Origin: Fibrella aestuarina BUZ 2
GTDB taxonomy: Bacteria; Bacteroidota; Bacteroidia; Cytophagales; Spirosomataceae
Assembly: GCF_000331105.1 (NCBI RefSeq)
Contig: NC_020054.1
Span: 1,601,698 to 1,665,697, forward strand
DNA: 64,000 nucleotides
Reading direction: 5' to 3'
Made by a program: the position numbers and the translations under genes. The notes beneath the pieces were generated by a model that saw only the letters and a list, made by a program, of their open reading frames with translations, did not search any database and was not told the DNA's origin. Shown here piece by piece: positions 35,428 through 56,301 of the stretch (position 1 is its first letter; each line of letters opens with the position of its first letter).

Positions 35428-36489
35428 CTAACTGGTTAGCTGAATGGTCAGGCTGAGGTTGTAGTGGTCGGTTGTGTTAGATACGACCAGATCGGCCCGG
35501 TTGCGATAGACCATGTACAGGCGTTTCCGGCAATTCTCCACCCCAATCCCTGACGAATGCTCCTTCATACCTGCCTTGTGTAGGTTGTGAATGTGTAGCT
35601 GCACGTGTTCGGCATGAACAAACAGGTAAATCTGAGCCGGGTTGTCGGCGTCGTGCAGTTCCCCATGTTTAAACACGTTTTCGATAAACGTAATCAGGAT
35701 CAGCGGCAGAATGCGCAACGTACCTGGGTTGCCAATGAGGCGGTAGTCGATTTGAAGCTTGTCGCCAAAGCGCAGTCGCTGCATCTGGATGAAGTTCTCG
35801 ACGTGTTGCACTTCGAGGCGGAGCGGCACTTTCCGGTCGGGTTGATCTTCGCTGAGGGCATAGCGCATCATATCCGACAGCAGAATGACCCCGTTGGCGA
35901 GGGGTTGGCTCACGGGTAGGGCTTTGCTGTAAAAGAAATTGAGCGTGTTGAACAGAAAGTGCGGGTTGATCTGGAGCCGCAGGTATTCCAGTTTCGAGTT
36001 GAGCAGTTCGGATTGCAGCTTCGCCTTTTCGCGTTCGAGCCGGGTAACGCCCGTGGCAAACCAGTACACAAACGAGTAGATCAGAAACTCGATGATGTAG
36101 AACAGGTTCAGCACCACAAACTGCTGAGGGGTTTCGGAGATATGGCTCACCGACCAGTTGACGGCCGGAAACAGGCTGTACTGCCACCAGTACTTGATCA
36201 GCAGCGTGCCGCCGACCGTCAGCAGCAGCCCGATGGCATACGATCCGTAGGCCCGGTTCTGATAAAAACGGGGCAGTAACCAAAGCGCATTGATGTAGAA
36301 GGGAATACTGAAGGTGATGTAATACGCCAGCAGATAGGGTACACTCAGCGATCGGCCAAGTACTACATTGACAATCAGCACACCTTCGTAAAAGCCGTAG
36401 GCCAGCCAGGCGAGCAGGTGATACAGCACCATTCGGCCATAGCGCTGAGTGAAAAAAACGAGTCGGTCAGGGAGAGGAAGTTGATTCAC
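35428..36489 (-). CDS. LytS-type sensor histidine kinase (His_kinase family)
   Basis: A 353-residue kinase. Four hydrophobic helices (about 20-150) make a membrane sensor with no periplasmic domain. The phosphoacceptor segment is LRLQINPHFLFNTLNFFYS near residue 170-190; the ATP-binding N box is LILITFIENVFKHGE and the G box GIGVENCRKRLYMVY. In Bacteroidota such kinases are normally next to a LytTR response regulator; here no such gene is adjacent, but one lies at 52264-53007, at the far side of the RiPP locus. Pairing is inference. Confidence 0.88.
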   Translation of the reverse strand: MNQLPLPDRLVFFTQRYGRMVLYHLLAWLAYGFYEGVLIVNVVLGRSLSVPYLLAYYITFSIPFYINALWLLPRFYQNRAYGSYAIGLLLTVGGTLLIKYWWQYSLFPAVNWSVSHISETPQQFVVLNLFYIIEFLIYSFVYWFATGVTRLEREKAKLQSELLNSKLEYLRLQINPHFLFNTLNFFYSKALPVSQPLANGVILLSDMMRYALSEDQPDRKVPLRLEVQHVENFIQMQRLRFGDKLQIDYRLIGNPGTLRILPLILITFIENVFKHGELHDADNPAQIYLFVHAEHVQLHIHNLHKAGMKEHSSGIGVENCRKRLYMVYRNRADLVVSNTTDHYNLSLTIQLTS

Positions 36490-37587: not shown

Positions 37588-39747
37588 ATGAAACCACTAC
37601 ACGTTTGTTCGCTGCTGCTTTGGCTGGCATACGTGCCGGTCTGCCTCGCCCAGGAGGCCGTTGTGTCGGGGTCGGTGTTCGATCAGCACGACGCCCGGCT
37701 GGCGGGGGCAAACATCAGCCTCAAAGGCACGTATGAAGGCGTCAGTGCCGATTCGCTGGGCAATTTTGTCTTCCACACCGAAACGCTGGGCCCGCAAACC
37801 TTGCTGGTATCGCTGGTGGGATACCAGACGGCCGAACTCCCCGTGTTGATTCAACCCACGGCCCCCGCCACCCTGACGGTCCGCCTGCGCGAAGCCGCCA
37901 ACGAACTGAACACCGTAACGGTATCGGGTAGCTCCTTCATCATCAGCGATTCCAAGCGGATGGTGCTGATGAAACCCCTGGACATTCTGACCACGCCCGG
38001 TGCTAATGCCGACATCGTGGCCGCGCTCCAGACGTTGCCCGGTACAACCAAAGTGGGCGAAACCGAAGGGCTCTTTGTGCGCGGTGGCGCAGGCACCGAA
38101 ACCCGCACCTTCCTCGACGACGCGCTGGTTGCCAACCCGTTCTACAGCGGCGGGCCCGACGTGGCGCAACGCAGCCGGTTTTCGTCGGCGGGGCTACTCT
38201 TCAAAGGTACGTCGTTTGGCAAAGGCGGGTTCTCGGCGCAATACGGGCAGGCGCTGTCGGCCATGGTAGCGCTCGAAACGCAGGACACCGATCCTATGCC
38301 CGGTACGACCCTCGCCCTCAACACGGGGGGCGTGGCGCTGACCTCGGCGAAGGAGACGGGTAAGTTCTCCTACTGGCAGAACACCTACTACACCAACATG
38401 GCGCTGTTGTTTCAGCTGATTCCGCAGAACATCAACTGGCAGCGTGCGCCCGAATACCTTGGCACCAACTTTCTGATGCGCTACCGACCCAACAGCCGGA
38501 GCATCCTGAAGCTCTACGGAATGGTGTCGGGCAACCGGTCGGCCCTGTCGTGGCGCGACACCGCCCGCCTCGATCCGCAGATGGCGCGTTACCAGATTGG
38601 TAACACCTATTACATGGGCAGCGTCAACTACCGGGCGACGTTTGGGGCCGACAACGGCTGGGTGCTGAAGGCGCTGGCTAGCTACAGCAACAACGTCGAC
38701 GACCTGAACCTCACCGGTACGTTGGCGGGCCGCTCCGATGAATTGTGGCAGAGCAAAGTGCTGGTAAGCCGGTCGCTGGGCGAACTGTCGAGCCTGCTGG
38801 TGGGCACGGAAACCCAGCACTATGCCTACACCAATCGCTACGCGCAGTTCAACCGGGCCATTGCCTACCAGTACGTGGCGACCTTCGCTGAGGCCGACTG
38901 GTTTCTGACCAACCGGCTGGCCATGAAAGCCGGGCTGCGCTACGAATACACGAGCCTCAACCGGCAGGCATCAGTATCGCCCCGGTTTACGCTGGCCTAC
39001 AAAACGGGTCCTTACAGCCAGATTTCAGGTAGCGCCGGTCGGTTTCTGCAACTGCCCAACAACCTGTACCTGATCAGCAACCCAACGCTGAACACCGAGC
39101 AGGCCTGGCACCTGATGGCCAACTACGAACGTACCCACAACAAACGGTCGATGCGGGTTGAGCTGTATCAGAAACAGTATGCCCAGCTGGTAACGGAGCG
39201 CGTCGCGGCCTACGACGCCAACCCGTACCGCTACCCGACGGCGGCAACCACCAACGGCGGCTTCGGCTACGCCCGCGGCCTCGATCTGTTTTTTAAAGAT
39301 GCGCAGAGCCTGAAACAGCTAGAGTGGTGGGTGTCGTATTCGCTCCTCGACACGCGGCGGCTGTTTGCCAACTACCTCGCCGAAGCCGTGCCCACGTTTG
39401 TCTCGAAGCACAATGCCAACGTGGTCGTGAAGTACACCGTACCGGGTGCCAACCTGACCATCGGTGCCAACTACGTCTGGGCGAGCGGACGACCCTACTA
39501 CAGCCCGACGTTCCAGGCCTACGAAACCCCGGCGTTCAACTCCATGAGCTTGAACGCCAGCTACCTCACCCGCCTGTGGGGGCACTTCACGGTACTCTAC
39601 GCCAGCGCCGACAATGTGCTGGGTATCCGCAATGTCTACAGCTACCGCTTCACGGCCGACGGCACCCAGCCCGTACCAGTCATTCCGGGCGCATACCGCT
39701 CGGTGTTTGCCGGACTCAGTGTCAGCCTCAGCAACAAGTCCAAATAG
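37588..39747 (+). CDS. TonB-dependent outer-membrane receptor
   Basis: A 719-residue receptor. Signal peptide to about residue 21; a carboxypeptidase-regulatory-like domain (about 25-105, DQHDARLAGANISLKGTY); a plug domain (about 130-230, DIVAALQTLPGTTKVGETEG and FVRGGAGTETRTFLDD); and a beta-barrel to the C-terminus, ending in the aromatic-rich barrel strands SVFAGLSVSLS. There is no SusD partner. It is the first structural gene of the RiPP operon, 29 bp before the next. It may recapture or sense the RiPP product, as in methanobactin loci where a TonB receptor imports a peptide metallophore; that parallel is inference. Confidence 0.9.
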   Translation: MKPLHVCSLLLWLAYVPVCLAQEAVVSGSVFDQHDARLAGANISLKGTYEGVSADSLGNFVFHTETLGPQTLLVSLVGYQTAELPVLIQPTAPATLTVRLREAANELNTVTVSGSSFIISDSKRMVLMKPLDILTTPGANADIVAALQTLPGTTKVGETEGLFVRGGAGTETRTFLDDALVANPFYSGGPDVAQRSRFSSAGLLFKGTSFGKGGFSAQYGQALSAMVALETQDTDPMPGTTLALNTGGVALTSAKETGKFSYWQNTYYTNMALLFQLIPQNINWQRAPEYLGTNFLMRYRPNSRSILKLYGMVSGNRSALSWRDTARLDPQMARYQIGNTYYMGSVNYRATFGADNGWVLKALASYSNNVDDLNLTGTLAGRSDELWQSKVLVSRSLGELSSLLVGTETQHYAYTNRYAQFNRAIAYQYVATFAEADWFLTNRLAMKAGLRYEYTSLNRQASVSPRFTLAYKTGPYSQISGSAGRFLQLPNNLYLISNPTLNTEQAWHLMANYERTHNKRSMRVELYQKQYAQLVTERVAAYDANPYRYPTAATTNGGFGYARGLDLFFKDAQSLKQLEWWVSYSLLDTRRLFANYLAEAVPTFVSKHNANVVVKYTVPGANLTIGANYVWASGRPYYSPTFQAYETPAFNSMSLNASYLTRLWGHFTVLYASADNVLGIRNVYSYRFTADGTQPVPVIPGAYRSVFAGLSVSLSNKSK

Positions 39748-39776: not shown

Positions 39777-40433
39777 ATGAAAACAATCAACTCCCTCGGA
39801 TGCATGCTGGCGCTGGCTACGCTGTTGATCGCTGCCGTGCCCCCCACCGACCCCGCCCGCTACCAGAAGGCGATGGAACTGTCGATCAAGAAGATCGACA
39901 CGGCCAAGACGAAAGAGCAGTTTCTGACGGGGGCGGCCCAGTTTGAACGGATCGCCCAAGCCGAAGCTACCGAGTGGTTGCCTGCCTACTGGGCGGCCTA
40001 CTCGTACGCGATGGCTACGGCCCGCGAAACCGACAAAACCCAGAAAGACGCCCTGCTCGACAAGATGGACAACTGGGTCGATACGGGTCTGCGCCGGTCG
40101 GCCAACAACGATGAACTGCTGGTGTTGCGGGCCATGTCAGCCCAGATGCGCCTGCCCGTCGATCCCATGAATCGCTGGATGAAATACGGGCCCGTGATTG
40201 GGCAGTCGCTTGAACTGGCCAAAAAGCAGAACCCGGCCAATCCGCGCGTCGACCTGGTGTATGGGCAGAATTTCTACTTCACCCCCGAGCAGTTTGGCGG
40301 TGGCTGCAAGAAAGCGTTGCCCTACCTGCAATCGGCCCAGCAGAAATGGAAGTCGTTTGTGCCAGCCAGCAGCATCGCGCCCAACTGGGGCACGCAGGAT
40401 CTGGCGCATTACCTCGGAAAGTGTCAGTCGTAA
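39777..40433 (+). CDS. Exported TPR-like protein of the RiPP operon (paralogue A)
   Basis: About 218 residues from ATG 39777. An N-terminal signal (INSLGCMLALATLLIAAV) is followed by an all-helical, TPR-like protein: ARYQKAMELSIKKIDTAKT, WLPAYWAAYSYAMATARE, DELLVLRAMSAQMRL. Near the C-terminus is NFYFTPEQFGGGCKKALPY, a motif also found in the protein at 42918 (NDYHTPPMFGGRKKAE). The pair therefore share ancestry and probably both serve the operon. Function unknown; scaffold for the modifying enzymes or product handling is plausible. Lies 29 bp after the receptor gene. Confidence 0.75.
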   Translation: MKTINSLGCMLALATLLIAAVPPTDPARYQKAMELSIKKIDTAKTKEQFLTGAAQFERIAQAEATEWLPAYWAAYSYAMATARETDKTQKDALLDKMDNWVDTGLRRSANNDELLVLRAMSAQMRLPVDPMNRWMKYGPVIGQSLELAKKQNPANPRVDLVYGQNFYFTPEQFGGGCKKALPYLQSAQQKWKSFVPASSIAPNWGTQDLAHYLGKCQS

Positions 40434-40472: not shown

Positions 40473-40667
40473 ATGAACGCCAAAGCTAACCTCCCTACCA
40501 AAGGCCGCCACGATGCCGCCTCCGAATCCGACAACATGGAGTCGTTTGACCTGAACATGTTCGACGTCGAAAGCCGCGATATGCCCTCCATCGGTACGTC
40601 GGGCTTCGAGATCGCCTCGCTGCTGGTCGCTTTAATCATCCTGTTGGGTATCCTCTACAAACACTAA
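40473..40667 (+). CDS. Leader-like peptide fused to a transmembrane helix
   Basis: A 64-residue protein from ATG 40473. Residues about 1-26 are polar; residues about 27-43 read SFDLNMFDVESRDMPSIGTSG (quoted in parts: DLNMFDVESRDMPS), which aligns with the leader DLNMTEVEGRDLPT of the precursor peptide at 46857, nine of fourteen identical and the rest conservative. After it comes a membrane helix (FEIASLLVALIILLGILY) and a short KH tail, with no Cys-rich core. The gene is 7 bp before the cyclodehydratase partner. It looks like a leader tethered to the membrane: a docking site that brings RRE-containing enzymes to the membrane, or a decoy. It could also be a true precursor with a hydrophobic core. 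Confidence 0.72.
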   Translation: MNAKANLPTKGRHDAASESDNMESFDLNMFDVESRDMPSIGTSGFEIASLLVALIILLGILYKH

Positions 40668-40674
40668 CCGCCTC

Positions 40675-41574
40675 ATGAGCAAGCTACTGATCGACGACGT
40701 TGCCATTTTCGAGAGCAACGAAGGTATTTACATCAGCCGGGGCGACCACGCGCTGGTCAACGTGAAAGGCCACGACGTACCCCTGGTGCTGAACGTGATC
40801 CGGGCCTTCCGCGAAAACGATTCGATGGACGAAGTGTACTACGACCTGATGCAGAAATACGGCATCGACGAGTCGCGCTACCACCGGATTGTGAACTGGT
40901 TGCTCAACAACCGCATCCTGCGCCAGGAACGCCCCGCCCGCACCAACACCTACCGCCTGACGGTGATCGGGTCGTTCAACAGCGCCGAGCAGGTGACCGA
41001 CAAGCTACTGAGCCAGCTCGACGGGGCCGATGCCCACTTTACGCTGCAACAGTTTATCGACATCCGTCAGCCGTTTGTGCCGACCAGCCTCGATGCCGAC
41101 ACCGATCTGGTGGTGGTATTCTCACCGCTGTTCGAGCAGTTCGACCGGTTCAAGCAGATCAACGAAGCGCTGTACAGGCAGCAACTCCGCTACCTGCACG
41201 TAGGTATCGACGAGTCGGGCTATACGCTGGGGCCACTGGTGCTGCCTGCGCTGAAAGCCCCCTGCCTGAAGTGCTACGCCCAGCGCAAGATCGTGAACAT
41301 GGCCGACCCCGACCAGTACCTGAAGTTTACGGCCCTGACCAACGTAGAAAAGCTCACCGCCATGAGCCTGCCCGCCATGCGCCACTTCGACCTGCTGGCC
41401 AAACACGTGCAACTGGTGGTTACCGACTACCTGCGTCTCGGCCATAGCGAATTCCTGGGCAAATCGGTGGTGGTTGATCTGGTGGGCAGCCAGATGCACA
41501 CCTCCAAAGTGCTGAAAGTGCCTACCTGCTCGGTCTGCGGCAGCGCCGACAATGTTTTCGCGCCCTTCCACTAA
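40675..41574 (+). CDS. Cyclodehydratase C-protein (E1-like, leader-binding partner of YcaO)
   Basis: A 299-residue protein of the TOMM cyclodehydratase partner family. Residues about 1-90 form a winged-helix, RRE-like leader-binding region (VPLVLNVIRAFRENDSMDEV, YHRIVNWLLNNRILRQ). The rest is the truncated E1-like fold; two zinc Cys pairs are visible: APCLKCYAQRK near residue 200 and PTCSVCGSADN at the end. It lacks the ATP-binding residues of true E1 enzymes, as expected, since YcaO supplies ATP. It would deliver the precursor leader to YcaO. 18 bp precede the YcaO gene. Confidence 0.85.
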   Translation: MSKLLIDDVAIFESNEGIYISRGDHALVNVKGHDVPLVLNVIRAFRENDSMDEVYYDLMQKYGIDESRYHRIVNWLLNNRILRQERPARTNTYRLTVIGSFNSAEQVTDKLLSQLDGADAHFTLQQFIDIRQPFVPTSLDADTDLVVVFSPLFEQFDRFKQINEALYRQQLRYLHVGIDESGYTLGPLVLPALKAPCLKCYAQRKIVNMADPDQYLKFTALTNVEKLTAMSLPAMRHFDLLAKHVQLVVTDYLRLGHSEFLGKSVVVDLVGSQMHTSKVLKVPTCSVCGSADNVFAPFH

Positions 41575-41592: not shown

Positions 41593-42891
41593 ATGTCTAT
41601 GGAACTCTCAGAGGTTATCGACCGCGAGGCGGGGCTGATCTCAGGTACGTTGTTCTCCATTCCGAACCGCCAGTTCATGCCGGCCGGTCTGTTCGCTACG
41701 GCGCTGAAAGGCACCAGCCTGCACATGCTCACCGAGTCGTCGTACAACAACGCCATCGTGGGCAGCTCCATCAGCTTTTCACAAGAGCAAAGCCTGCGGG
41801 CGTCGGTTGGTGAGTTTGTCGAACGCTACTGCGCCAACTTTTACCTGCCCGGAAACTGCATTATGGGGAGCTACGAAACCCTTTCGGCAACGTACCCCCT
41901 GATGCACCCCTCCGAGATCAAGCTCTTCGCCGACTGGCAGTATAAGCAGCCCCGCGAGCGGTTCCCGTTCCGGAAGCTGACCGTTACCGACGAGATCCGC
42001 TGGATTCGGGCGACCGACTACCTCAACCAGCGGCCCATCTACGTACCGCTGTTCATGGTCTACATGCAGTCGGCAGGTAACGACCGCTTCTATTCACCCC
42101 ACACCTCCACTGGCCTGGCCGCAGGCCCCAGCCTCCAGGCTGCCATGCAGGGTGGCCTTTTCGAAGCCGCCGAACGCCATGCCTTTACCTATTTCTGGTA
42201 CCATCAGCAGCAGGAGCCGTATGTGCGCTACTCGGCCCAGATGATGCTCGACGCCTACCCGAACGACCCACAGATCACCCAGTTGTTCGACAACCCGCGC
42301 GTGCAGATTGTGCTGTATGACCTACAGGCCTACACGCCCTTCGAGACCATCCTGATGATCATGTACTTCACGTTCAAAGGGCGTTCCTACCAGGCGATGG
42401 GCTGTGCCACGCGCTTCAGCAAAGTAGAGGCGATCAAGAAGGCGGCGCTGGAAACCTATCAGGGTGTGGAATACTGCCTGCAAAAAGAAAAGGCCGTCTG
42501 GGAGCTAAACGACCCCGAAGACCTCGACAAGCTCGACTCATTTGAGAAGTGCGCGATCTACTACAACCAGTATCCCGAGCAGCGCCACAAGTCGCCCCTG
42601 CTGACCGACGCCTGGCTGAACACCACGACCTACGCCCCCGCGCTGTTGCACCGGCCCGACCCGCTCAATAGCCTCGACCCCGCCGAACTGACCCGGCATG
42701 GCATCGGGCCGATGTATACGCTCGACCTCACCACGCCCGACGTGGCCGAGATTGGCTACCGGGTTTGCCGGGTTATCACGCCCAACTTCTCGCTGCTGTC
42801 GGGGAGCCGCACCTGGCCTTACCTGGGTAATCCCACCTTCGAGAAGGACGCCAGCCGGTTGTTCATCACCTACCCGCATCCGTTTCCCTGA
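41593..42891 (+). CDS. YcaO-type azoline-forming cyclodehydratase
   Basis: A 432-residue YcaO enzyme that uses ATP to activate backbone amides so Cys, Ser or Thr side chains close to azolines. ATP-binding regions are visible: RASVGEFVERYCANFY near residue 75, GLAAGPSLQAAMQGGLFEA with AERHAFTYFW near 175-200, and CATRFSKVEAIKKAALETYQ near 270. The protein ends in PHPFP, the C-terminal PxPxP that marks YcaO proteins acting in azole-peptide synthesis rather than in ribosomal modification. It stands directly after its C-protein partner. Confidence 0.92.
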   Translation: MSMELSEVIDREAGLISGTLFSIPNRQFMPAGLFATALKGTSLHMLTESSYNNAIVGSSISFSQEQSLRASVGEFVERYCANFYLPGNCIMGSYETLSATYPLMHPSEIKLFADWQYKQPRERFPFRKLTVTDEIRWIRATDYLNQRPIYVPLFMVYMQSAGNDRFYSPHTSTGLAAGPSLQAAMQGGLFEAAERHAFTYFWYHQQQEPYVRYSAQMMLDAYPNDPQITQLFDNPRVQIVLYDLQAYTPFETILMIMYFTFKGRSYQAMGCATRFSKVEAIKKAALETYQGVEYCLQKEKAVWELNDPEDLDKLDSFEKCAIYYNQYPEQRHKSPLLTDAWLNTTTYAPALLHRPDPLNSLDPAELTRHGIGPMYTLDLTTPDVAEIGYRVCRVITPNFSLLSGSRTWPYLGNPTFEKDASRLFITYPHPFP

Positions 42892-42917: not shown

Positions 42918-43676
42918 ATGACACGCAAGAATTTTCTCTCCCTGCTCCTGATGGCCCTGATCGGCTGGGGCATTTACACCGGCCTGCAACTGCTGCGCCC
43001 CCGCGATCAGGTGGTTGACCAAATCGGCCTGAGTGCGAAAAACGACCCGCAGTTTCAGGGTATCGAGGCGCAGATCGAAACCGCCCGCAAGCAGGTCGAC
43101 GACGCCACGCTGGCCGCCATCGAACAACGCCTCACTAAAGCCCAGACCGACGAGGCCGCTTACTGGCTCGCCTATACGCTCTTTCAGCGGGCGGTGATTC
43201 GCGAAGACAAAAAAGACATGGATGGGGCCAAAGCCTATGCCGAGCAGGCCCTGGCCCGGCTGGGGAAGGTAGTCCATAAAGACTCGGAAGACTACGCGCT
43301 GCTGTCGATGATCCGGGCGTATTCCATCCAGTTTGCCTCGTTCTTCGAAGTGTCGTCCCTGGCCGACCGGGCCAAACGCGAGGCTAACGCCGCCATCCGG
43401 TCCGACTCGACCAACCTGCGCGCCTTCTACGTGGCCGGCCTCAACGACTACCACACGCCGCCGATGTTTGGCGGGCGCAAAAAAGCCGAATCGTTGTTTT
43501 TAAAGGCCATCGCGCTGGGTGGCCAGCCCAACCGCCCCGGCAACATCCGCTGGGGACTCAGGCAGGCCTACGCCAACCTGGAGCAGTTTTACAAGGAGGC
43601 CGGCAATGCCCGCGCCGCCCAGCGCATCAAAGAACAGGCTACCCACCAGCCCGATCAGGTGGCTTCCATCGACTAA
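42918..43676 (+). CDS. Membrane-anchored TPR-like protein of the RiPP operon (paralogue B)
   Basis: A 252-residue protein with an N-terminal anchor (FLSLLLMALIGWGIYTGLQLL) and a helical-repeat body: AAYWLAYTLFQRAVIREDKK, GAKAYAEQALARLGKVVHKD, LADRAKREANAAIRSDST. The motif NDYHTPPMFGGRKKAE near 185-200 matches NFYFTPEQFGGGCKKA in paralogue A (39777). The two differ mainly at the N-terminus. Probably exposed to the periplasm. The role in the pathway is unknown; being anchored, it could help assemble the enzymes at the membrane together with the 64-residue peptide. Confidence 0.75.
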   Translation: MTRKNFLSLLLMALIGWGIYTGLQLLRPRDQVVDQIGLSAKNDPQFQGIEAQIETARKQVDDATLAAIEQRLTKAQTDEAAYWLAYTLFQRAVIREDKKDMDGAKAYAEQALARLGKVVHKDSEDYALLSMIRAYSIQFASFFEVSSLADRAKREANAAIRSDSTNLRAFYVAGLNDYHTPPMFGGRKKAESLFLKAIALGGQPNRPGNIRWGLRQAYANLEQFYKEAGNARAAQRIKEQATHQPDQVASID

Positions 43677-43693: not shown

Positions 43694-44560
43694 ATGAGCC
43701 GCCGCAACCCGCTTGGTATTTTTCTGGCCGAGGAAAACCTCGGAGATGAAGCGAAAGACTTTCTCGAATCGCTGAAAACGCACGAATATCACCTGCTCGA
43801 CCCCAGCTTCAACGAGCGGATCCGGGTGGTCAACAGCTCGAAAGAGATCGGGGGTATCATTGCCTCACACACCTTCGAACTGGGTAGCCTGCCCCAGATA
43901 CCGCTGGCCCCGCTCAATCTGGATCATCCCGGCCTGCGGGCGTTGGTCGAGCAGGGCGTGCGGCGGTCGAGTCAGCGCCAGTATGGTGAGCCGCTGCCCT
44001 TCGCTACGGTGTCGCAACTGCTACAGGCGGCGTATTTCAACAAGAACAACGTTAGCCTGCCCGATGGCGTCATGGACCCGGCCGAGCAACAGCAACTCCG
44101 GTTCAAGAACATCGCGTCGGGTGGCGGGCTCTACACGGTGGAAGTCTATTACCTGAGCCTGCGCACCGACGGGCTGGCGTCGGGGGTGTATCACTACAAC
44201 CTCAACGACAAGACCCTCGAACAGGTGCGGGTGCTGGATACCGACGACGACATTCTGAAGATGCAGGGCGCGTTCTTCGGCGACAAACGCAGCAACATCG
44301 ACTTCGATCACGCCAGTGGCATTATCGTCATGGCTGGGATCATCAACCGGGCGTCGTTCAAATACGGCAACCGGGCCATCGCGCTCGCCTACATCGACGC
44401 CGGGGCCATCATCCACAACCTCTACACTGTGTCGAATCTGCTCGGTATTGGCTGCTGCGGCAATGGGGGTTTCCTCGACGATACCCTCCGAACGTACCTG
44501 AATCTCCGCACCACCAGCCAGGTCATTCTGGGCAGTGTCATCGTAGGCTCAACTGTATAG
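43694..44560 (+). CDS. SagB-type FMN-dependent azoline dehydrogenase
   Basis: A 288-residue nitroreductase-fold enzyme of the SagB type, which oxidises thiazolines and oxazolines to aromatic azoles using FMN. The FMN/phosphate-binding segment is RRSSQRQYGEPLPFATVSQLL; the mid-region GGGLYTVEVYYLSLRTDGL and the C-terminal IALAYIDAGAIIHNLYTVS, GIGCCGNGGFLDD match the family. Its presence predicts thiazoles rather than thiazolines in the product. It lies between the anchored TPR-like protein and the M50 protease. Confidence 0.88.
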   Translation: MSRRNPLGIFLAEENLGDEAKDFLESLKTHEYHLLDPSFNERIRVVNSSKEIGGIIASHTFELGSLPQIPLAPLNLDHPGLRALVEQGVRRSSQRQYGEPLPFATVSQLLQAAYFNKNNVSLPDGVMDPAEQQQLRFKNIASGGGLYTVEVYYLSLRTDGLASGVYHYNLNDKTLEQVRVLDTDDDILKMQGAFFGDKRSNIDFDHASGIIVMAGIINRASFKYGNRAIALAYIDAGAIIHNLYTVSNLLGIGCCGNGGFLDDTLRTYLNLRTTSQVILGSVIVGSTV

Positions 44561-44590: not shown

Positions 44591-45733
44591 ATGGAACCGC
44601 TCGTACTAAACCCCGCGCTGGAAGTCATTATCACGCCCGAAAGCGATAGTGTGCTGCTGAAGAATCATCAGACGGGTAAACTAAAACTGATCGGCAACCG
44701 CGAATGGTCGATCATCCAGGCCTGTGCCGAAGACCGGCTCACCGAACTGTACCAACTGTTTCAGGCCGACTACATGCACCGGGTCATCGCCAAAGGCCTC
44801 GAAATGCAGATTCTCTGCCCAGCCAACCAGGTAAACCAGACCGATTCGCCGGCCGTACCGACTACCTGGCTGGGCAAGGTGGGTGCGTGGGTCAGCCGGG
44901 TTACGGGCGGCCGCATCCGCTTCGATATGCGTGGCGACTTCTCCATGTTCCGGGTCTTCACACTGCGGCTGCACAAAGGCAACCCCTTCGAGTCGCTGCG
45001 GCTTCCGTGGGTGGCGGCTACCTACGGCGGGCTGTTGGTGGCACTGCTGGTGCTGATGTTGGTGGCGCCCAACACACTGCGCGAAACCTTCTTTACCGTA
45101 TCGAACCGCGTGACGCATCAGATCGCTCTTTTCGTGGTGCTGACGTTCTTCAGCTCGTATGTCGTCGGGATGATCCACGAGATGGGCCACTACATCATCT
45201 ATAAATCGATGGGGGGGCAATCCAACCAGATCGGCTTCGCGCTGAAGTTTCTGGTGATGCCCACGCTTTACGTCAACACCGACACCGTACACCTCTGGAA
45301 AAAACGCTGGAAGCGCATTCTGGTATCGTTTGGGGGCAGCATCATGGACGCCACCGTTGGCCTCATCATCGTGGTGCTGATCCGCCATCAGGGCCTCAAC
45401 TTCCCCAATGCGGCGTTCTTTGGCTACATGATGCTGATCTCGGTGACGATCAAGCTGATCTTCAACCTGAATTTCTTCGTACACGGCACCGACGGCTACT
45501 TCATCCTGAGCGATCTGCTGGGCCGCAACAACATTCAGAAAACGGCACAGGCCGCCAAAAACCAGCTTTGGTCGGCCGTTCGGCAGGGTAACCTGGCGGC
45601 GCTGCGGTCGATGCGGGGCGAAAACTGGGTCGGCGTGGGCTACTTCGCTGTGGGGTTCATGTTCAAATGCCTCTCCATTTTCCTCACCATCTACTCGTTC
45701 ATTTTCATCGGCAGCACGCTGATCAAATTCTAA
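44591..45733 (+). CDS. M50 site-2-type metalloprotease with RRE-like N-terminus
   Basis: A 380-residue membrane protein. Residues about 1-85 resemble a PqqD-like leader-binding winged helix (SVLLKNHQTGKLKLIGNREW). Then come membrane helices and the zinc motif H196-E-M-G-H200 (GMIHEMGHYIIYKSMGG), with the third ligand probably the Asp in FFVHGTDGYFILSDLLG near 300. This is the layout of 'putative peptide zinc metalloprotease' proteins found with RiPP loci. It may cleave the precursor leader or release the product through the membrane. As the locus has no ABC peptidase-exporter, it is the best candidate for leader removal; inference. Confidence 0.83.
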   Translation: MEPLVLNPALEVIITPESDSVLLKNHQTGKLKLIGNREWSIIQACAEDRLTELYQLFQADYMHRVIAKGLEMQILCPANQVNQTDSPAVPTTWLGKVGAWVSRVTGGRIRFDMRGDFSMFRVFTLRLHKGNPFESLRLPWVAATYGGLLVALLVLMLVAPNTLRETFFTVSNRVTHQIALFVVLTFFSSYVVGMIHEMGHYIIYKSMGGQSNQIGFALKFLVMPTLYVNTDTVHLWKKRWKRILVSFGGSIMDATVGLIIVVLIRHQGLNFPNAAFFGYMMLISVTIKLIFNLNFFVHGTDGYFILSDLLGRNNIQKTAQAAKNQLWSAVRQGNLAALRSMRGENWVGVGYFAVGFMFKCLSIFLTIYSFIFIGSTLIKF

Positions 45734-45751: not shown

Positions 45752-46684
45752 ATGAAAATCGTCCAGTCGTTCTGGAGCGTGCCGGCCCTGGGTGGCGTAG
45801 GCAGCGATCAATCACTCAACCGCTCGAAGGGTGGCTGGCTGGCGGCCCGGTATCACTGGCTGGCCTGGACCTTCAGCTGCCTGCAACTGCGGCAGTTTCA
45901 CGAGGAGGTCGAACTTGTCACCGACGCCCGGGGTAAACAAATCCTGATCGACCAACTACGCTTGCCGTATACGCAGGTACGTGTCGAACTCGATGCCTTC
46001 GACAACGCCAACCCGCACCTGTGGGCGCTGGGTAAGCTCTGGGCTTACCGTAGTCAGACAGTCCCCTTCCTGCACGTCGACAGCGACGTGTTTGTCTGGG
46101 ATGCCCTGCCAACGTACCTGACCGACGCCCCAGTGGCGGCGCAGGGCATCGACAGCCGCGATTTGTGGTTCTACCAGGCCACGCTCGAAACCATGATCCG
46201 GGGTGGGTTCGATCTCCCGCCCGAACTTCGGCAGGCGCACCGGCTGGGTGGCTACCGAAGCCTCAACGCCGGTATTTTTGGCGGCGGCGATCTGCCCTTC
46301 ATCCAGCAGTATAGTCAGTTGGCCATCGACCTGGCCCTGCGCAATCAGCACCGGCTGTCAGCCGTCGATCTGCCCGACGTGGGCGCCGGGATGGTGAATC
46401 TGGTCTACGAGCAGCTCTACGCCTGGTGCCTTGCCAAACAACATCGTCGCTCCGTTGCCGTGTTGCTGCCCCACTACCAATCGGCCGATTCGTATGACCT
46501 GATTACCAACTTCATGAACGTCTACGAGAAGCGAACAACGTACCTGCACCTGGCGGGGCGTAAGCCCAAACAGGACCTGAACCGCTGCCTGGTGCTCGAA
46601 AAGCTGGTTCGGCATTATTACCCCGATTACTACGACCGCGTGGTTGCCCTCGTTAGCCCCGCCGCCATCCATTGCCCAGCCTGA
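45752..46684 (+). CDS. DUF6734-like, glycosyltransferase-like protein
   Basis: A 310-residue protein that reads like a GT-A-type enzyme: after LNRSKGGWLAARYHWLAW comes LWALGKLWAYRSQTVPFLHV and then a D-S-D motif in HVDSDVFVWDALP near residue 110, where metal-dependent glycosyltransferases hold nucleotide sugar. GGYRSLNAGIFGGGDLPFI is the typical donor/acceptor strand-loop. It matches DUF6734-like proteins common in Bacteroidota; the substrate is unknown. As the last gene of the RiPP operon it may decorate the peptide or act in cell-surface polysaccharide. Its stop codon lies inside the terminator stem. Confidence 0.75.
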   Translation: MKIVQSFWSVPALGGVGSDQSLNRSKGGWLAARYHWLAWTFSCLQLRQFHEEVELVTDARGKQILIDQLRLPYTQVRVELDAFDNANPHLWALGKLWAYRSQTVPFLHVDSDVFVWDALPTYLTDAPVAAQGIDSRDLWFYQATLETMIRGGFDLPPELRQAHRLGGYRSLNAGIFGGGDLPFIQQYSQLAIDLALRNQHRLSAVDLPDVGAGMVNLVYEQLYAWCLAKQHRRSVAVLLPHYQSADSYDLITNFMNVYEKRTTYLHLAGRKPKQDLNRCLVLEKLVRHYYPDYYDRVVALVSPAAIHCPA

Positions 46685-46856: not shown

Positions 46857-47018
46857 TTAGCAGCAGCAGGTCGTGCAGCAACAGGCGTAGATCGAGTCGT
46901 CGGTGGCAGCAGCAGCTTCCGTGGGCAGGTCACGGCCTTCTACTTCAGTCATGTTCAGGTCGAGTGAGTCGGCGGCTGATTTGAATTCGCTGTTTGATTG
47001 GAAGAGTTCCTTTTCCAT
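46857..47018 (-). CDS. Azole-RiPP precursor peptide, Cys-rich core
   Basis: A 53-residue precursor read directly from the sequence; ATG at 47018, TAA at 46857-46859. The leader is acidic and holds LDLNMTEVEGRDLPTE, the same motif as the membrane peptide at 40473 and similar in form to thiazolyl-peptide leaders (acidic, then a D-L/M-P-x-E box). An AAAAT segment follows and the core ends DDSIYACCCTTCCC: six Cys and two Thr in the last eight residues, so almost every core residue could become a thiazole, methyloxazole or dehydrobutyrine. It has its own terminator. It lies between the + strand enzyme operon and the divergent 752-residue gene, on the opposite strand from the YcaO genes. A metal-binding peptide is the alternative, but the leader match argues for RiPP. 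Confidence 0.85.
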   Translation of the reverse strand: MEKELFQSNSEFKSAADSLDLNMTEVEGRDLPTEAAAATDDSIYACCCTTCCC

Positions 47019-47416: not shown

Positions 47417-49675
47417 ATGTCTCAACGAATTAGCCGCCACACCCGCCCCCTTGAGCTGGTTGGGCTTGGTGCCAGCCATTGGGCGCACCTCACGGAATGG
47501 CTTACCGAACAGGGCTGGCCCAGCGCGTTGCTCGCCACCGATCTGACCTACGGGGCCTGGCAGGCGCAGCACATCGCCAGCGAACTGGCTCGTCAGCTGC
47601 AACACCCACTCCTTCCGCCACCCGCCAGCGGACCCACGCCCTCATCGCTGGCCTACGGCGATCTGGTCGGGCGGGGTATCGACGCTGAAGCTGCCGGGGA
47701 TAAAGCCCTGATCAACGCCGTCGATGCCCTGGAGCATCTGGCACCTGCGCTGGCCACCCTGCCGCCCCACACGATCGTGGTGCTGCTGCCACGGGCAACT
47801 TATACCTTCGGTGCCGACAACGCGGCTTTCGTGTACCTGTTGGCGCAGTGGCTCGAAACGCATGCATCGCACAAGCTGCTGCTACTGGATACGGATAACG
47901 CCCGTCCCCAACCCGGCGATGGATTCTGGCACATCACGTACCCGGCTGGTGTGACCCCATCGTTGCACAAACCAGCGCCGCTCACGCACCTGCTGGCCTA
48001 CACGCCCTCGCTGCTGGCCGACGAATCGTATCAGCTTGCGCCCCGCACCTCGGCTCGTGCCGACGCCTGGGTAACCCTGTCGGGCGGGCAACACCTGCTC
48101 AAACCTGAATACCGCCCTATCGCTACCCCGCCCGCCGACATGCCGCCAAACCCATTGTTTGGCCGCCCGTTGCTGGCTTTCTGGCAATACCACAACCAGC
48201 CCGACTCGGCCCTGATGGGGCAGGCCTGGCAACTGTTTGGGGCGGGCTGTGCTGATATCGCCATCCAACTGGCCGTACGCTGCGTAGCCGCTGCCCAACT
48301 GCCTATTATGCGCGGGGTGTTGCTGGCGCAGTTGCAGGGCATGCGCATTGCCACCATGCGGTTTGCCGATGCTGCTGCCGAAGCCGAACCCGCCGCCGCG
48401 CTGCCCACCGGCATCCGGTCGTTTCTGCATCAGGCTATTGGCTGGGGACTCGCCATGACCAACCGGCTACCCGACGCCAAACGGCAGTTTGAACTGGCTT
48501 CTGCCTATCAGGAGCCTACCATTGCCCCGCTCGAAAAAGCGTATTTCGATAACATCCAGGCGTTTCTGCATTACCGGATGGGCGACGCCGACCAGGCCTT
48601 CCGGCTAGAAAAAGGCATTGAGGCGCTTCATCAGACGGTGCCGGACGAAGATTTTCGCCTTACCTACATCAACTCCATCAATCAGGCCCGCCTCTACAAA
48701 TCGGTGGGTGATCTGGTCAACGCCGAGGCTTATTACGAACGGGCCTTTGCTACCACGCTGGGCAACCGGTCGGAGAGCGATCTGGTGTATGTGCACGTCT
48801 GCCGCGCCCTGCTCCGGCACGATCAGAACGAACCCGACGCCTGTTTCCGCGAGTGGGTGCAGGCGGCGCTCCACTGGGCCGCGGCAACGTACCCGGAAGC
48901 TGTGGGCGGCCGTACGCTGACCGCCATCCTGAACACCCATCGCCTGCCGCCCCCCACCGACCGTGTGGAGGCAACGGCACAGGCCTTCGTGGAGCGGATT
49001 ATCGCCCTGGGGGCCGTGCTGAATCGGGACCTGAGCACGGAACTGTCGGGGACGCCCTGTGTCTTTGTGCACGCCAGTCAACGGCCCGGCTGTGAGACCG
49101 TAGCGGGCAACGGCTGGTTGCTGGTAGGCACGACCAACGTACCCAGCCAACCCGCCGTGGTGGGGCCACAATCCGACCGGCTCCGGGCACTGCTCACCAA
49201 CCTGCTCACCACCGAGCTGGGTACGTTGGCTCAGCAACCAACTATTCTGATCGACGACCGGGGGCTCGACGAAGCGCCCTCGCCGGCAGCAGTCTGGTTG
49301 CTGGGCTGGCAATGGGCGGCAAAACGGCTTTACTGGCAGGGAACGGAACAAGCCTACGCTGATTACCTTCTGCCGCAGGTCCGGGTGGCGCTTTCACCGG
49401 CCGTGGCCCGGCGCGTAGCCGTGCCGTCGGGCGGGCAACAGCTTCAGTTCAAACGCTACCGGCAACCACTGGCCCTGACCGACAAAGCCGCCGATTGGGT
49501 CGACTGGTTTGCCGCCGGTCCGACGCTGGGTCAGTTGTGGCAACGGCACGACCGGCAAACCGTCGACGAACTCCTGCGGGTATTCCAGCAGCGCCGGATC
49601 ATCCGCCTGTCGCTGCCCGACGAAGCCCTGAACGCGGCCCCTACGGCGGCCTATGCATCGTCCTTTCTTGTCTAA
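47417..49675 (+). CDS. Unknown 752-residue protein of the RiPP locus
   Basis: I recognise no named family. The N-terminal 200 residues look like an alpha/beta domain (LELVGLGASHWAHLTEWL, HTIVVLLPRATYTFGADN, ASHKLLLLDTDNARPQ). Residues about 280-500 are helical repeats of TPR type (LPDAKRQFELASAYQEPTIA, SVGDLVNAEAYYERAFATT). A further alpha/beta region (500-640) precedes a C-terminal winged-helix-like end (VDWFAAGPTLGQLWQRHDRQ, VDELLRVFQQRRIIRLSL) that resembles an RRE. No signal peptide or membrane helix. It is 18 bp before the Clp gene, so the two are coexpressed, and divergent from the precursor gene. It may be a peptide-binding scaffold or an enzyme new to this locus type. Confidence 0.72.
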   Translation: MSQRISRHTRPLELVGLGASHWAHLTEWLTEQGWPSALLATDLTYGAWQAQHIASELARQLQHPLLPPPASGPTPSSLAYGDLVGRGIDAEAAGDKALINAVDALEHLAPALATLPPHTIVVLLPRATYTFGADNAAFVYLLAQWLETHASHKLLLLDTDNARPQPGDGFWHITYPAGVTPSLHKPAPLTHLLAYTPSLLADESYQLAPRTSARADAWVTLSGGQHLLKPEYRPIATPPADMPPNPLFGRPLLAFWQYHNQPDSALMGQAWQLFGAGCADIAIQLAVRCVAAAQLPIMRGVLLAQLQGMRIATMRFADAAAEAEPAAALPTGIRSFLHQAIGWGLAMTNRLPDAKRQFELASAYQEPTIAPLEKAYFDNIQAFLHYRMGDADQAFRLEKGIEALHQTVPDEDFRLTYINSINQARLYKSVGDLVNAEAYYERAFATTLGNRSESDLVYVHVCRALLRHDQNEPDACFREWVQAALHWAAATYPEAVGGRTLTAILNTHRLPPPTDRVEATAQAFVERIIALGAVLNRDLSTELSGTPCVFVHASQRPGCETVAGNGWLLVGTTNVPSQPAVVGPQSDRLRALLTNLLTTELGTLAQQPTILIDDRGLDEAPSPAAVWLLGWQWAAKRLYWQGTEQAYADYLLPQVRVALSPAVARRVAVPSGGQQLQFKRYRQPLALTDKAADWVDWFAAGPTLGQLWQRHDRQTVDELLRVFQQRRIIRLSLPDEALNAAPTAAYASSFLV

Positions 49676-49693
49676 CCTCTTTTGCCTTGTTCT

Positions 49694-52261
49694 ATGAAAT
49701 TTGACTTCTGTACGTATAAAGCGCAGGAAATGATTCGGCAGGCCGCGCAACTGGCCAAACAGGGTGGGCAACAGGCCATCGAAGCGGGTCATCTGCTGAA
49801 AGCCATCCTGCAACACGACACCGAGACCTGCACGTTTCTCTTCGACAAATGTGGCGCCCGCCTTCCCCTGTTGAGCGAGAAACTCGACGCGGTCATGAAG
49901 CTCTACCCGCGTGTTACGGGTGGCGACCCGTTCATCGGTCTGGACGCCTCCAACGCTATCCGCCGGGCGCGTGGGTTGCTGACCGAGTTCAACGACGAGT
50001 TTGTGAGCGTCGAACTGCTGCTGCTGGGGTTGCTCGAAGGCAACGACCTGGCCGCCAAGTTCATGCACGAAGCTGGCCTGCGAAGCAATGCCGTCAAAGA
50101 GGCGATTAAAAGCCTGCGCGGCCCGGCCAAAACGGTGCAGAGCGCCTCCGCCGACAAGAGCTATCAGGCGTTGCTGCGGTACGGCATCAACCTGACCGAG
50201 CGGGCGCAACAGGGGGGTATCGACCCCGTTGTCGGGCGCGACGAAGAGGTGCGGCGGCTGTTGCAGATTCTGAGTCGGCGGGGCAAAAACAACCCGGTAC
50301 TGGTGGGTGAACCCGGCGTTGGGAAAACCGCCATTGTGGAGGGTCTGGCGCGCCGAATCGTGCAGGGCGACGTACCTGCGGTGCTGGCCGACAAAACCAT
50401 TGTCAGCCTGGACATGGGCCTGCTCATGGCCGGGGCGAGTTACAAAGGCGAATTTGAAGAGCGCCTGAAAGCCGTGGTGCAGGAAGTGGCAGCGTCCAAC
50501 GGGTCGGTTATTCTGTTCATCGACGAAATCCACACGCTCGTGGGAACCGGCAGCGGCAACAACAGCGCGCTCGATGCGGCCAACCTGCTGAAACCAGCGT
50601 TGGCCCGGGGCGAACTCCGCACCATCGGCGCTACCACGCTCGATGAGTACCAGAAATACATCGAGAAAGACAAAGCGCTCGAACGGCGGTTTCAGCCCGT
50701 GCGCGTCAACGAGCCCGACATCGACGATGCCATAAGTATCCTGCGCGGGGTGAAGGAAAAGTTTGAACTGCACCACGGTGTGCTGATCCAGGACGACGCC
50801 ATCATTGCCGCCGTTGAGCTGTCGGCCCGTTATATCAATGACCGCTACCTGCCCGACAAGGCCATCGACCTGATCGACGAAGCCGGGGCCAAACTGCGCA
50901 TCGAAACGGAAGCACTGCCCCAGGAACTCGACGCACTGAACCGGCGGATCGTCAAGCTCGAAATCGAACGGGAGGCCATCCGGCGGGAGAAAAAAACGCA
51001 GAAAGAAAAAGTATTGACCGATACGCTGGCCGACCTGACGGCGCAACGCGACGAACGGCTGGGCCAATGGGAACGCGAGAAACAAACGTTACTCTCTATA
51101 CGTAACCTAAAGTCGCTACTTGATCAGTACCGCACCGACGTGGAGCAAAGCGAACGGCAGGCCAATTACGCCCGTCTGGCCGAACTGCGCTACCAGCTTA
51201 TTCCCGACGCCGAAACCCGACTTCGGCAACTCACCGCCGAAGCCCTGGCCGCGCCGCTGATCAACGAAGAAGTGACACCCGCCGAAATTGCCGCCATCGT
51301 GACCCGCTGGACGGGCATTCCCGCAAGCCGGATGCTGCAAACCGAACAGCAGAAACTACAGGACCTGGATAGCGAACTGGCTCAGCGCGTGGCTGGTCAG
51401 CCCGCCGCCATCCGGTCGGTGGCTAATGCCGTGCGCCGGTCCAGAACGGGCTTGCAGGACCCCAAACGGCCCATCGGCAGCTTCCTGTTTCTGGGTCCAA
51501 CGGGCGTGGGTAAAACCGAACTGGCCAAAGCGCTGGGCGAAGCGCTCTTCAACAATGAGCAGTCGCTGGTCCGCATCGACATGAGTGAATACCAGGAACG
51601 GCAAACAGTGAGCCGCCTGATTGGGGCCGCGCCGGGACTGGTGGGCTACGACGAAGCCGGGCAACTCACCGAGGCCGTTCGGCGCAAACCGTACAGCATT
51701 GTGCTGCTCGACGAAATCGAAAAGGCACACCCCGACGTTTGGAACATCCTGTTGCAGATTCTGGACGATGGCCGCCTCACCGACAACAAGGGGCGCGTGG
51801 TCGATTTCAAGAATACCATCGTCATCATGACGGCCAATCTGGGCAGCGCTATCATCCGGGCCAACGCGCTTCAACCCGCCACCGACGAACGGGCGTTGCG
51901 GCAAGCTGTGGTGCAGGAACTGCAAACCGTGATGCGACCCGAATTCATCAACCGAATCGATGAGATCGTGCTCTTCAACCCGCTGTCTGAGTCGGTGATT
52001 GAACAGATTCTGGCGGGCCAGCTGAAACAGCTACAGCACCGCCTTGAGCAACAGGAACTCCATCTGACGGTATCACCCGAGGCCTACCAGAAGCTGGCCG
52101 CCGAGGGCTACGATCCGGCCTTTGGGGCACGGCCGCTGAAACGGGTGGTGCAGCAACGGGTAATCGATCCGCTGGCCCATCTGCTCGTGGCGGGCAACGT
52201 ACCTGCCGACCGGATGGTGTCGCTCTACGTCGATGTCGATGATGAACTGAGCGTTCGGTAG
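49694..52261 (+). CDS. ClpB-like AAA+ disaggregase in the RiPP locus
   Basis: About 855 residues from ATG 49694. It carries the N-terminal Clp repeat domain ([19 protein letters not shown]; 1-150), AAA module 1 with Walker A GEPGVGKT near 205, a coiled-coil middle domain (about 405-525, [17 protein letters not shown]), and AAA module 2 with GPTGVGKT near 601, [17 protein letters not shown] and [15 protein letters not shown] see no ClpP-binding IGF loop, so it is of ClpB rather than ClpC type. Nothing else here is a heat-shock gene; association with the RiPP genes suggests unfolding of the precursor or enzymes, or a self-resistance copy, since some peptide antibiotics attack Clp ATPases. Confidence 0.9.
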
Positions 52262-52263
52262 GG

Positions 52264-53007
52264 TTAGCGGCGCTGGCTGTTGACCATGCGCGTTTCGAGC
52301 ATCGTGAAGAAAGGTAATCGGTAGGTTTCGCCCAGCGGGACCTGCCGATTGTCGCTTAAAATGATCTGGTTGCCCTCAACCATGCTGATGCTGCTGAGCG
52401 CCACAATATACGATTTATGCACCCGGATGAAGCCCCGGTTCACCAGCTGCTCTTCTAGCTCTTTGATGGGCATATGCGTGATCACCCGCCCTTTCGTGAG
52501 GTAAATCGACAGGTAATTTTTAAGCCCTTCGACGTACGTGATATCGGCAAAATTGACTTTGGCGTATTTGCCCTTCACGTCTACTTTCACGAAAATGAAA
52601 TCTTCCTCAGCAGGAGCAGCGGCCGGTGGGGCTACCGGGGCGGGCACATTCGGAACCATGTATTTCTCCAGCCGCTGAGCCGCCTTGAAAAAACGGTCGA
52701 AACTGATGGGCTTGAGCAGGTAATCGACCACGTTATGCTCGAAAGCATCCACCGCATATTGCGTGTAAGCGCTCATCAGCACCACTTTGGTGCGGCCACC
52801 CAGCAGTTTCAGCACATCGATGCCTGATAGCTTGGGCATCTGAATGTCCAGAAAGAGCACGTCGATGGGTTTGGTCTGCAGGTCGATTAGCCCCGCGACG
52901 GGATCGGTCGAACTCCCACAACTGACCAGAAACGGAATGTTTGAGATGTGATGATCAATGACGTCGATAGACGCCTGCTCATCGTCAAGGGTGTAGACGT
53001 TTAGCAT
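52264..53007 (-). CDS. LytTR-family response regulator
   Basis: A 247-residue regulator from ATG 53007 (MLNVYTLDDEQ); the longer frame upstream is not needed. The receiver domain is intact: acidic pair in YTLDDEQ, phospho-Asp in VLFLDIQMPKLSG, Thr/Ser switch in VLMSAYTQYA and Lys in DYLLKPIS. After a Pro/Ala-rich linker (140-155) the LytTR DNA-binding domain reads KYAKVNFADITYVEGLKNY, PIKELEEQLVNRGFIRVHKS. It lies 177 bp beyond the LanB gene on the same strand and may be controlled with it. The likely cognate kinase is the LytS protein at 35428; the cluster lies between them. Confidence 0.9.
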   Translation of the reverse strand: MLNVYTLDDEQASIDVIDHHISNIPFLVSCGSSTDPVAGLIDLQTKPIDVLFLDIQMPKLSGIDVLKLLGGRTKVVLMSAYTQYAVDAFEHNVVDYLLKPISFDRFFKAAQRLEKYMVPNVPAPVAPPAAAPAEEDFIFVKVDVKGKYAKVNFADITYVEGLKNYLSIYLTKGRVITHMPIKELEEQLVNRGFIRVHKSYIVALSSISMVEGNQIILSDNRQVPLGETYRLPFFTMLETRMVNSQRR

Positions 53008-53184
53008 AGGTACCAACCAATGGAGTTTGGGCGAGAAGAGAACGGCTATGATCTGGTAGTTCGCAATTGGTCGACTGAAGCCATCTGAAAAACAAGTCGG
53101 TTGGTTATCAATGGTGTAGACAGTCACCGGTAATAAACAATAGTCGTATCATATAAACAACTGGTATGGGGACAATCGGTAAAA

Positions 53185-56100: not shown

Positions 56101-56301
56101 GTGCTGGTCGAGGTGCAGCTGAATGCTGGTATGCAGGGCCGGCGACGACACAAAAAGGGCGTCGTTGAACCAGCGGTCGCGCCACAGCCGGGGCAAACAT
56201 ACCGACGGGTCGTGGTGGAGGTCGTCGACCGTGTTGATCGGCAGGGAAGGCGTGCGCAGCAAAAAATAGGATGCTGGCGTCAGCGCGGCGCGGGCAGTCA
56301 T
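53185..56301 (-). CDS. Full-length LanB-type lantibiotic dehydratase
   Basis: A 1038-residue class I dehydratase. LanB transfers glutamate from glutamyl-tRNA to Ser or Thr and then eliminates it to give dehydroalanine or dehydrobutyrine. The N-terminal glutamylation part has LRISTRSTPFGLMAGCSVG at residues about 84-102, a hallmark; the C-terminal SpaB_C elimination domain (about 750-1020) contains AWLYVKLYTGAYYADELL and FFIRYYDPDFHLRLRVH. In azole-containing thiopeptide or goadsporin loci these halves are two proteins; here they are one. No LanC is near, so lanthionine rings are not predicted. It is downstream of atpG, behind a terminator. Confidence 0.93.
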   Translation of the reverse strand: MTARAALTPASYFLLRTPSLPINTVDDLHHDPSVCLPRLWRDRWFNDALFVSSPALHTSIQLHLDQHGWPLPPSLLRPLTNYVLRISTRSTPFGLMAGCSVGSVDLALSQVRLQPLAQRAVLFRRLDMDCVARLVQQLLLEPAIRQQVRFFTNNSHYTIGDELRYIECDNSGAQRRYFVSAVGHSPSLQALLDEAVSGRTIGQLMDWLVADGHTPDLAQHVVAQLIDSQLIVSELEPELTGGAMLPLLRAKLVPLTGTEAIVAMLNQVEQLLSRSDLTASAVQEQVRQALAPYLSANTTTHLIQTDLFIRTTVNQLSERVVSTITDQLGTLLPLNQPRAIPAFRAFVRRFQDRYDGREIPLLEALDGEFGVGYGTTAGSQTVYAPLTDGLQFPAPPTDRQVTWGAFDELALKKWAQALRTGQLAVELTLDELAALPKPTPPPASAYVAGNLLSASEADLDKGDFQFNLLATGGPSAANLLGRFCAHSPELTAHVQASLAEEALHEPDTLFAEVVHWPDDRLGNVLIRPAFRPYEIPYISRASVGPEQQLPASDLLVSVGPDGLVRLRSRRYNRPVVPRLSNAHNYQHGLSVYQFLADLQHQHATMTLRWHWGLLDGQAFLPRITFKNLILCRANWTLPVASLPLTTPGDLAHHLQTNQHAPRWIALAQGDNELVIDLSSTVGQQTLFDEAKRLTTLRLVEWLATPEHCWLTDGDQRFVQELVLPISYQPVTATPPKAPLEATATPLLPRSFAPGSAWLYVKLYTGAYYADELLAAVVTPLLQEWYQTEQITAGFFIRYYDPDFHLRLRVHSERVGFTGPLLDRLHERLAPYLTAGIVHRVQIDTYEREVERYGAATMALSEQLFSADSLTALTYLAEQPDPADRWLFALQSCDALLTDFAVDLATRTSLLQTLQAQFLAEHHADQALRKQLNDRFRAQQRLIEQRLADPNVPSLSDRSAGLGTLVDQIRAACGANPTGPSLLSLLASYLHMTLNRLFTSAHRQQEMVVYHFLARYYESQLARQRKGHAQGAKTPSSNG

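Follow-up and report, generated by a model that had tools for sequence, protein, structure and literature searches.

Why would a gene cluster of the azole type carry its precursor leader twice, once on a Cys-rich precursor and once on a small protein that ends in a predicted membrane helix? We addressed this question in a 64,000-nucleotide stretch of the Fibrella aestuarina BUZ 2 genome (the window), in which an open reading frame on the plus strand at 40473..40667 encodes a 64-residue membrane peptide (the 64-mer). Its ATG lies at 40473, its stop codon ends at 40667 and the next ATG, at 40675, follows 7 bases later. A sequence-only reading of this DNA had placed the 64-mer 7 bp before a YcaO partner gene, and this spacing is correct; the partner is a SagC/McbB-like C protein, and YcaO itself is encoded from 41593. 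Third-position GC of the 64-mer gene (0.77) is similar to that of five neighbours (0.79–0.83). The peptide consists of an acidic, variable N-terminus, the leader box ESFDLNMFDVESRDMPS, a conserved linker (IGTSGFE) and a hydrophobic stretch that runs up to the C-terminus. With its flanking residues, the box reads MESFDLNMFDVESRDMPS (residues 22–39; 40536..40589), and the membrane helix with its short tail, IASLLVALIILLGILYKH (residues 47–64; 40611..40664), is predicted from hydropathy. The best 19-residue hydropathy mean is 2.39, and is 1.97 in the homologous peptide of L003, a locus of genome G109 from the second genus that carries the membrane peptide; both helices are hydropathy predictions. 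The charge flanking the helix is −5 before and +1 after it. The last 18 residues contain one Ser and no Cys, the whole 64-mer is free of Cys, and the only modifiable residue in the helix of the L003 peptide is one Cys. A Cys/Ser/Thr-rich core, as expected of a LAP precursor, is thus missing from the 64-mer, and the anatomy proposed earlier, a precursor leader box with a predicted membrane helix instead of a core, is borne out. Pfam scans of six proteins of the precursor or membrane-peptide kind gave no match. The 64-mer also matched Plasmodium Cir/Yir (E 0.025), but below cut-off and over its hydrophobic end, and this match was set aside. The linker and helix (40593–40661) also resemble the archaeal Heimdall-CTERM sorting signal below its cut-off (18.3 bits versus 24; three of four members match weakly), which would offer a lead if the C-terminus is processed.

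The second copy of the leader lies on a 53-residue Cys-rich precursor encoded on the minus strand at 46857..47018 (core YACCCTTCCC). The two proteins have in common a 17-residue leader box, DSLDLNMTEVEGRDLPT in the precursor and ESFDLNMFDVESRDMPS in the 64-mer, with an ungapped local score of 57 that only 1 of 20,000 shuffles of the N-terminal part of the 64-mer attained. After the two box-bearing reading frames, the next-best score among 626 window ORFs of at least 30 aa was 38. We also built a profile from three Cys-rich precursors, the F. aestuarina one included, with no membrane-peptide rows. At E ≤ 10 it found two places only in the 6.94 Mb genome, the precursor (E 2e-29) and the 64-mer (E 0.078). 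Conversely, a membrane-peptide profile, which includes the 64-mer by construction, had one further match in this genome at E ≤ 0.05 besides the 64-mer itself, namely the precursor (E 0.04). The box is common to the 64-mer and the precursor beyond chance, and the shuffle test and whole-genome profile controls confirm the leader-box repeat that had been claimed for the 64-mer. The likeness between the L003 box and its own precursor is weaker (score 33; 191 of 20,000 shuffles as high). When five membrane peptides were compared with ten leaders, the top score of the window peptide was with its own precursor (57), and the G109 peptide scored 33 and 35 with its own precursors and 41 with P0007.

The genes around the 64-mer encode two candidate partners for the box. 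The C protein (40675..41574, plus strand) is of the E1 type and matches TIGR03603 (E 3.5e-11) and TIGR03882 (E 4e-8), both below the curated cut-offs. Its N-terminal RRE is predicted from the fold of a homologue: the Sphingobacterium C protein matches TruD, LynD-type heterocyclases, McbB and MccB. It is followed on the same strand by a SagD-like YcaO cyclodehydratase (41593..42891; PF02624, E 1.9e-57, 195.5 bits versus a cut-off of 25.7; TIGR03604 below cut-off), a SagB-family dehydrogenase (43694..44560; TIGR03605 above cut-off) and an M50 site-2-type membrane metalloprotease (44591..45733; PF02163), whose HExxH motif is invariant in eight relatives and which matches NF041824 at E 3.8e-13, below cut-off. 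In a model of medium confidence (pLDDT 73.7), the protease N-terminus resembles an RRE, with weak Foldseek E values of about 0.1, and its body a site-2 protease. Sequence searches of the PDB with the C protein, its N-terminus and the M50 protein returned nothing of use; fold comparison was informative. The cluster thus has two enzymes with predicted RRE domains. The C protein had been proposed earlier as a leader partner; it is not the only possible one, because the M50 protein carries a predicted RRE of its own. In a model of a relative's Cys precursor fused to its own C protein, leader residues 8–14 form a β-strand; in this artificial fusion from another organism, the mean pLDDT is 81 for residues 1–10 and 47 for residues 11–20.

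The same strand encodes a TonB-dependent receptor-like outer-membrane protein (37588..39747; PF13715, PF00593), a TPR-like protein just upstream of the 64-mer (39777..40433) and a second TPR-like protein of the operon (42918..43676). The best-matching relative of the first TPR-like protein lies beside the membrane peptide in L003 and is not present as a separate gene in ten related clusters described below. Between the M50 gene and the precursor lies a DUF6734 protein (45752–46684, plus; E 1.6e-94), and between the precursor and a Clp gene a 752-aa protein (47417–49675, plus) with no Pfam family and weak TPR matches; neither has a counterpart among the matches listed for L003. Visual likeness had suggested an RRE at the C-terminus of the 752-aa protein, which profile comparison rejected (probability 0.2%). 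The Clp gene, beside the precursor, encodes a ClpB-like AAA+ ATPase (49682–52261, plus; 1147 bits versus a ClpB cut-off of 1232), with a relative at the matching place in L003 that is split into two ORFs (262–2172 and 2185–2928). Adjoining the YcaO cluster is a full-length LanB-type lantibiotic dehydratase (53185–56301, minus; Lant_dehydr_N and C) with a LytTR response regulator beside it (52264–53127, minus); the proximity of the dehydratase may be chance, because the genome has four PF04738 places. A histidine kinase (35428–36489, minus) and this LytTR regulator flank the cluster and could be a split two-component pair. The strict pattern TTTG...TAnnTTTG, a Bacteroidota promoter consensus, occurs no more often in the window and in L003 than chance predicts.

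The membrane peptide is rare. A homologue of the 64-mer was found in 2 of 222 family genomes, F. aestuarina itself and G109, and the C protein in eight; both peptide carriers are among those eight (chance 0.0011). In an order-level sample, which missed G109, 8 of 390 genomes had the C protein (F. aestuarina, six genomes of an Aquirufa-group genus and G249), and in a phylum-level sample 2 of 395 (F. aestuarina and G249). A class-level scan with the membrane-peptide profile at E ≤ 0.05 gave 8 of 395 genomes, our own and seven others (best E 0.0066, better than the 0.04 of the F. aestuarina precursor); we take these seven as noise, because about 20 genomes are expected by chance at this threshold. 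A leaders-only profile run against 5.8 billion proteins gave 40 candidates, of which 16 were returned: 12 have Cys-run cores and four (P0001–P0004) a membrane helix, which brings the distinct membrane-peptide sequences to six, including those of the window and L003. The 104 pattern matches in viral contigs included no relative, and tblastn against plasmids gave a single weak place (E 0.4), in Pseudoalteromonas. Between lineages, 12 of 18 residues are identical in box and linker (MFDVESRDMPSIGTSGFE versus MFEVENRDMPSVSTGGWE), compared with 7 of 18 in helix and tail, so that the box is the better-kept part of the membrane peptide. Within lineages, 19 changes were counted in P0001–P0004, 13 of them in the N-terminus, one in the box and five in the helix or tail. 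The linker follows the pattern PS[IV]xTxG[FW]E, which is specific to membrane peptides and absent from the Cys-rich precursors.

Gene order in L003, from a second genus, is as in the window: TonB receptor, TPR protein, membrane peptide, C protein, YcaO, TPR protein, SagB and M50. Beyond the M50 gene it continues with two precursors on the opposite strand (cores CCCCCCC and CCCCCCCC) and a Clp-type ATPase in two ORFs. The cores of these L003 precursors (3203–3376 and 3460–3612) consist of seven and eight consecutive Cys, from which YcaO and SagB might make polythiazole tracts; the core of the F. aestuarina precursor, CCCTTCCC, resembles those of its relatives. The sequence-only reading had made its case depend on co-occurrence with Cys-rich precursors and on persistence of the motif in relatives. 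Both genomic loci found do contain Cys-run precursors, and relatives retain the box.

We compared these two loci with ten related clusters, from the six genomes of the Aquirufa-group genus, G249, Adonisia turfae, Bacteroidales UBA1402 and Sphingobacterium griseoflavum. All ten encode proteins that match the C protein, YcaO, SagB and M50 of the window, together with a short Cys-run ORF whose leader has a similar box (for example LKLTLTVLENRD or LSLTIQEVENRN). By sequence, the 64-mer box is an instance of the leader motif found in a wider family of Cys-run YcaO (LAP) clusters. The related clusters differ from the window in the placement of the precursor: in 10 of 10, none of which has the membrane peptide, the Cys-run precursor closely precedes the C gene and shares its strand. 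No box-plus-helix peptide turned up among the ORFs shorter than 110 aa that were scanned in the ten loci. In the two clusters with the membrane peptide, it is this peptide that lies upstream of the C gene, with the Cys-rich precursors at the other end on the opposite strand. Because the membrane peptide holds the position of the precursor, the 64-mer looks like a precursor paralogue in the ancestral place whose core became a membrane anchor.

We tentatively favour the explanation that the 64-mer is a membrane-tethered leader mimic that would dock the predicted RREs of the C protein and the M50 protease at the inner membrane; recruitment of RRE-bearing enzymes to the membrane was among the roles suggested by the sequence-only reading. 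A paralogue of the ancestral precursor would have kept its place upstream of the C gene and swapped its core for an anchor; the helix would hold the box at the membrane with the N-terminus in the cytosol, and the box would dock on the RRE of the C protein, the M50 protein or both. The tether would in this way gather the C–YcaO–SagB complex beside the RRE-bearing site-2-type protease, and the modified precursor would be passed on for leader removal at the membrane. The fuller account, of a duplicated precursor gene in which one copy traded its core for an anchor and became a dedicated scaffold peptide for RiPP assembly, bringing the azole synthetase next to an intramembrane protease that bears an RRE and perhaps activating it in trans, is plausible but calls for some reserve. 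What has been observed in favour of a tether is that the 64-mer and the precursor have a box in common, that this box is conserved in a second genus, that the peptide co-occurs with the cluster and that its gene takes the precursor's place upstream of the C gene. Its structural elements are predicted: the membrane helix, the RRE folds and the pairing of the box as a β-strand, modelled on the precursor of a relative. Several points count against it. Once bound to an RRE, a tether would be in competition with the substrate for that site, the membrane peptide is rare and the ten related clusters evidently do without one, and the box in L003 matches its own precursors weakly (191 of 20,000 shuffles). 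Under the positive-inside rule, the charge balance of −5 before and +1 after the helix argues mildly for an orientation opposite to a cytosolic N-terminus.

The strongest rival, which we regard as serious although rather unlikely, is that the 64-mer is a second, membrane-inserted precursor, its box recognised by the RRE of the M50 protein and its chain cut near or in the helix so that a hydrophobic peptide is released, as by TmcP with TMcin. The default reading of two ORFs that share a leader is that both encode precursors, the 64-mer sits in the ancestral precursor position, and the linker specific to membrane peptides could be a cleavage site. Such precursors exist, since the available text on TMcin (PMC13252029) describes a RiPP precursor in the membrane that a site-2-clan protease cleaves, and daptide clusters contain RRE-M50 peptidases and make products that the accessible part of PMC10036551 describes as hydrophobic and helical. 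Against this, the helix varies more than the leader between lineages (7 of 18 versus 12 of 18 residues identical) and contains almost no Cys, Ser or Thr for YcaO; the membrane peptide is moreover single-copy where the Cys precursors are doubled in L003, and no ABC exporter was recognised among the 22 window proteins scanned. We rank the tether above a second substrate because the helix is nearly devoid of residues that azole enzymes could modify and is less conserved than the box.

The 64-mer might instead be a gate or pseudo-substrate of the M50 protease, its box in the RRE and its helix beside the membrane domain, so that the protease would stay closed until the 64-mer gives way to a modified precursor. 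The M50 protein joins an RRE-like domain to a site-2-type body, the box is a short linker away from the helix, and a small membrane protein, TmcE, is required for TmcP cleavage according to the part of PMC13252029 available. We nevertheless consider a gate improbable; the ten related clusters have the M50 protein without the membrane peptide. Small hydrophobic peptides can also act as immunity proteins, and the genes scanned included no other recognisable immunity gene, but an immunity peptide has no need of a leader box. A decaying precursor copy without a role would not retain box, linker and helix in two genera, nor is it suggested by the 19 changes in four relatives, of which 13 fall in the N-terminus, one in the box and five in the helix or tail. 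No positive evidence emerged for the decoy or immunity role once proposed, and we hold an immunity peptide, a decoy or a decaying copy to be distinctly improbable.

Leader peptides are usually regarded as disposable tags on substrates. In the window cluster, one copy of the tag is carried by a peptide of its own, predicted to lie in the membrane, whose gene stands among those of the enzymes; two of these enzymes are predicted to bind leaders, and one of the two is a membrane protease. If the 64-mer is a tether, it would show how a soluble RiPP synthetase gets to the membrane, where cutting and export would follow, and would allow leader recruitment to be studied separately from substrate modification. 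If the 64-mer is a second substrate instead, it would be a membrane-spanning RiPP precursor within an azole-type cluster. The sequence-only reading knew of no RiPP system with a membrane-anchored leader mimic. Our searches of an open-access library, which holds few subscription journals, found none described, and there was none in the accessible text of PMC12452194, PMC10885120, PMC10676384 and PMC10036551; a membrane-spanning RiPP precursor, TMcin, has since been described (PMC13252029, available portion). Terms such as M50 and transmembrane are absent from the accessible text of the 2015 TOMM survey (PMC4603692), as are M50, thiazole and azole from that of PMC10352776, which treats YcaO clusters.

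Among known systems, TMcin, with its precursor TmcA and protease TmcP, has a single membrane helix in a leader-bearing peptide, to which the helix predicted by hydropathy in the 64-mer may correspond, and its cluster, like that of the window, includes a site-2-type protease. In the text available (PMC13252029), TMcin is distinguished by two universally conserved Cys that form a disulfide, a loop after the helix, a DUF3267 protease and the ABC transporter TmcBC, and neither YcaO nor RRE is mentioned. The 64-mer differs in having no Cys and in ending at the helix, and Pfam identified no ABC transporter among the 22 window proteins. Epipeptide clusters share an M50 membrane protease (EpeP; PMC10885120, in part), and so do daptide clusters, in which it has a fused RRE (PMC10036551, in part). 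The daptide oxidative decarboxylase, aminotransferase and methyltransferase were not found among the 22 window proteins scanned, and the daptide C-terminal Thr is unmatched: the 64-mer ends in KH and the precursor in CCC, and the window cluster is of the azole type. The closest likeness is to LAP/TOMM clusters of the SagBCD or McbBCD type. The window cluster has their YcaO, an E1-like C protein with an RRE (predicted from the fold of a homologue, with NCBIfam matches below cut-off), a SagB-type dehydrogenase and a precursor with a leader and a Cys/Ser/Thr core. To these it adds a second leader-bearing peptide with a predicted membrane helix, an RRE-like M50 protease, and TonB and TPR proteins. 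Judged on sequence, it is a cluster of the LAP kind with unusual partners.
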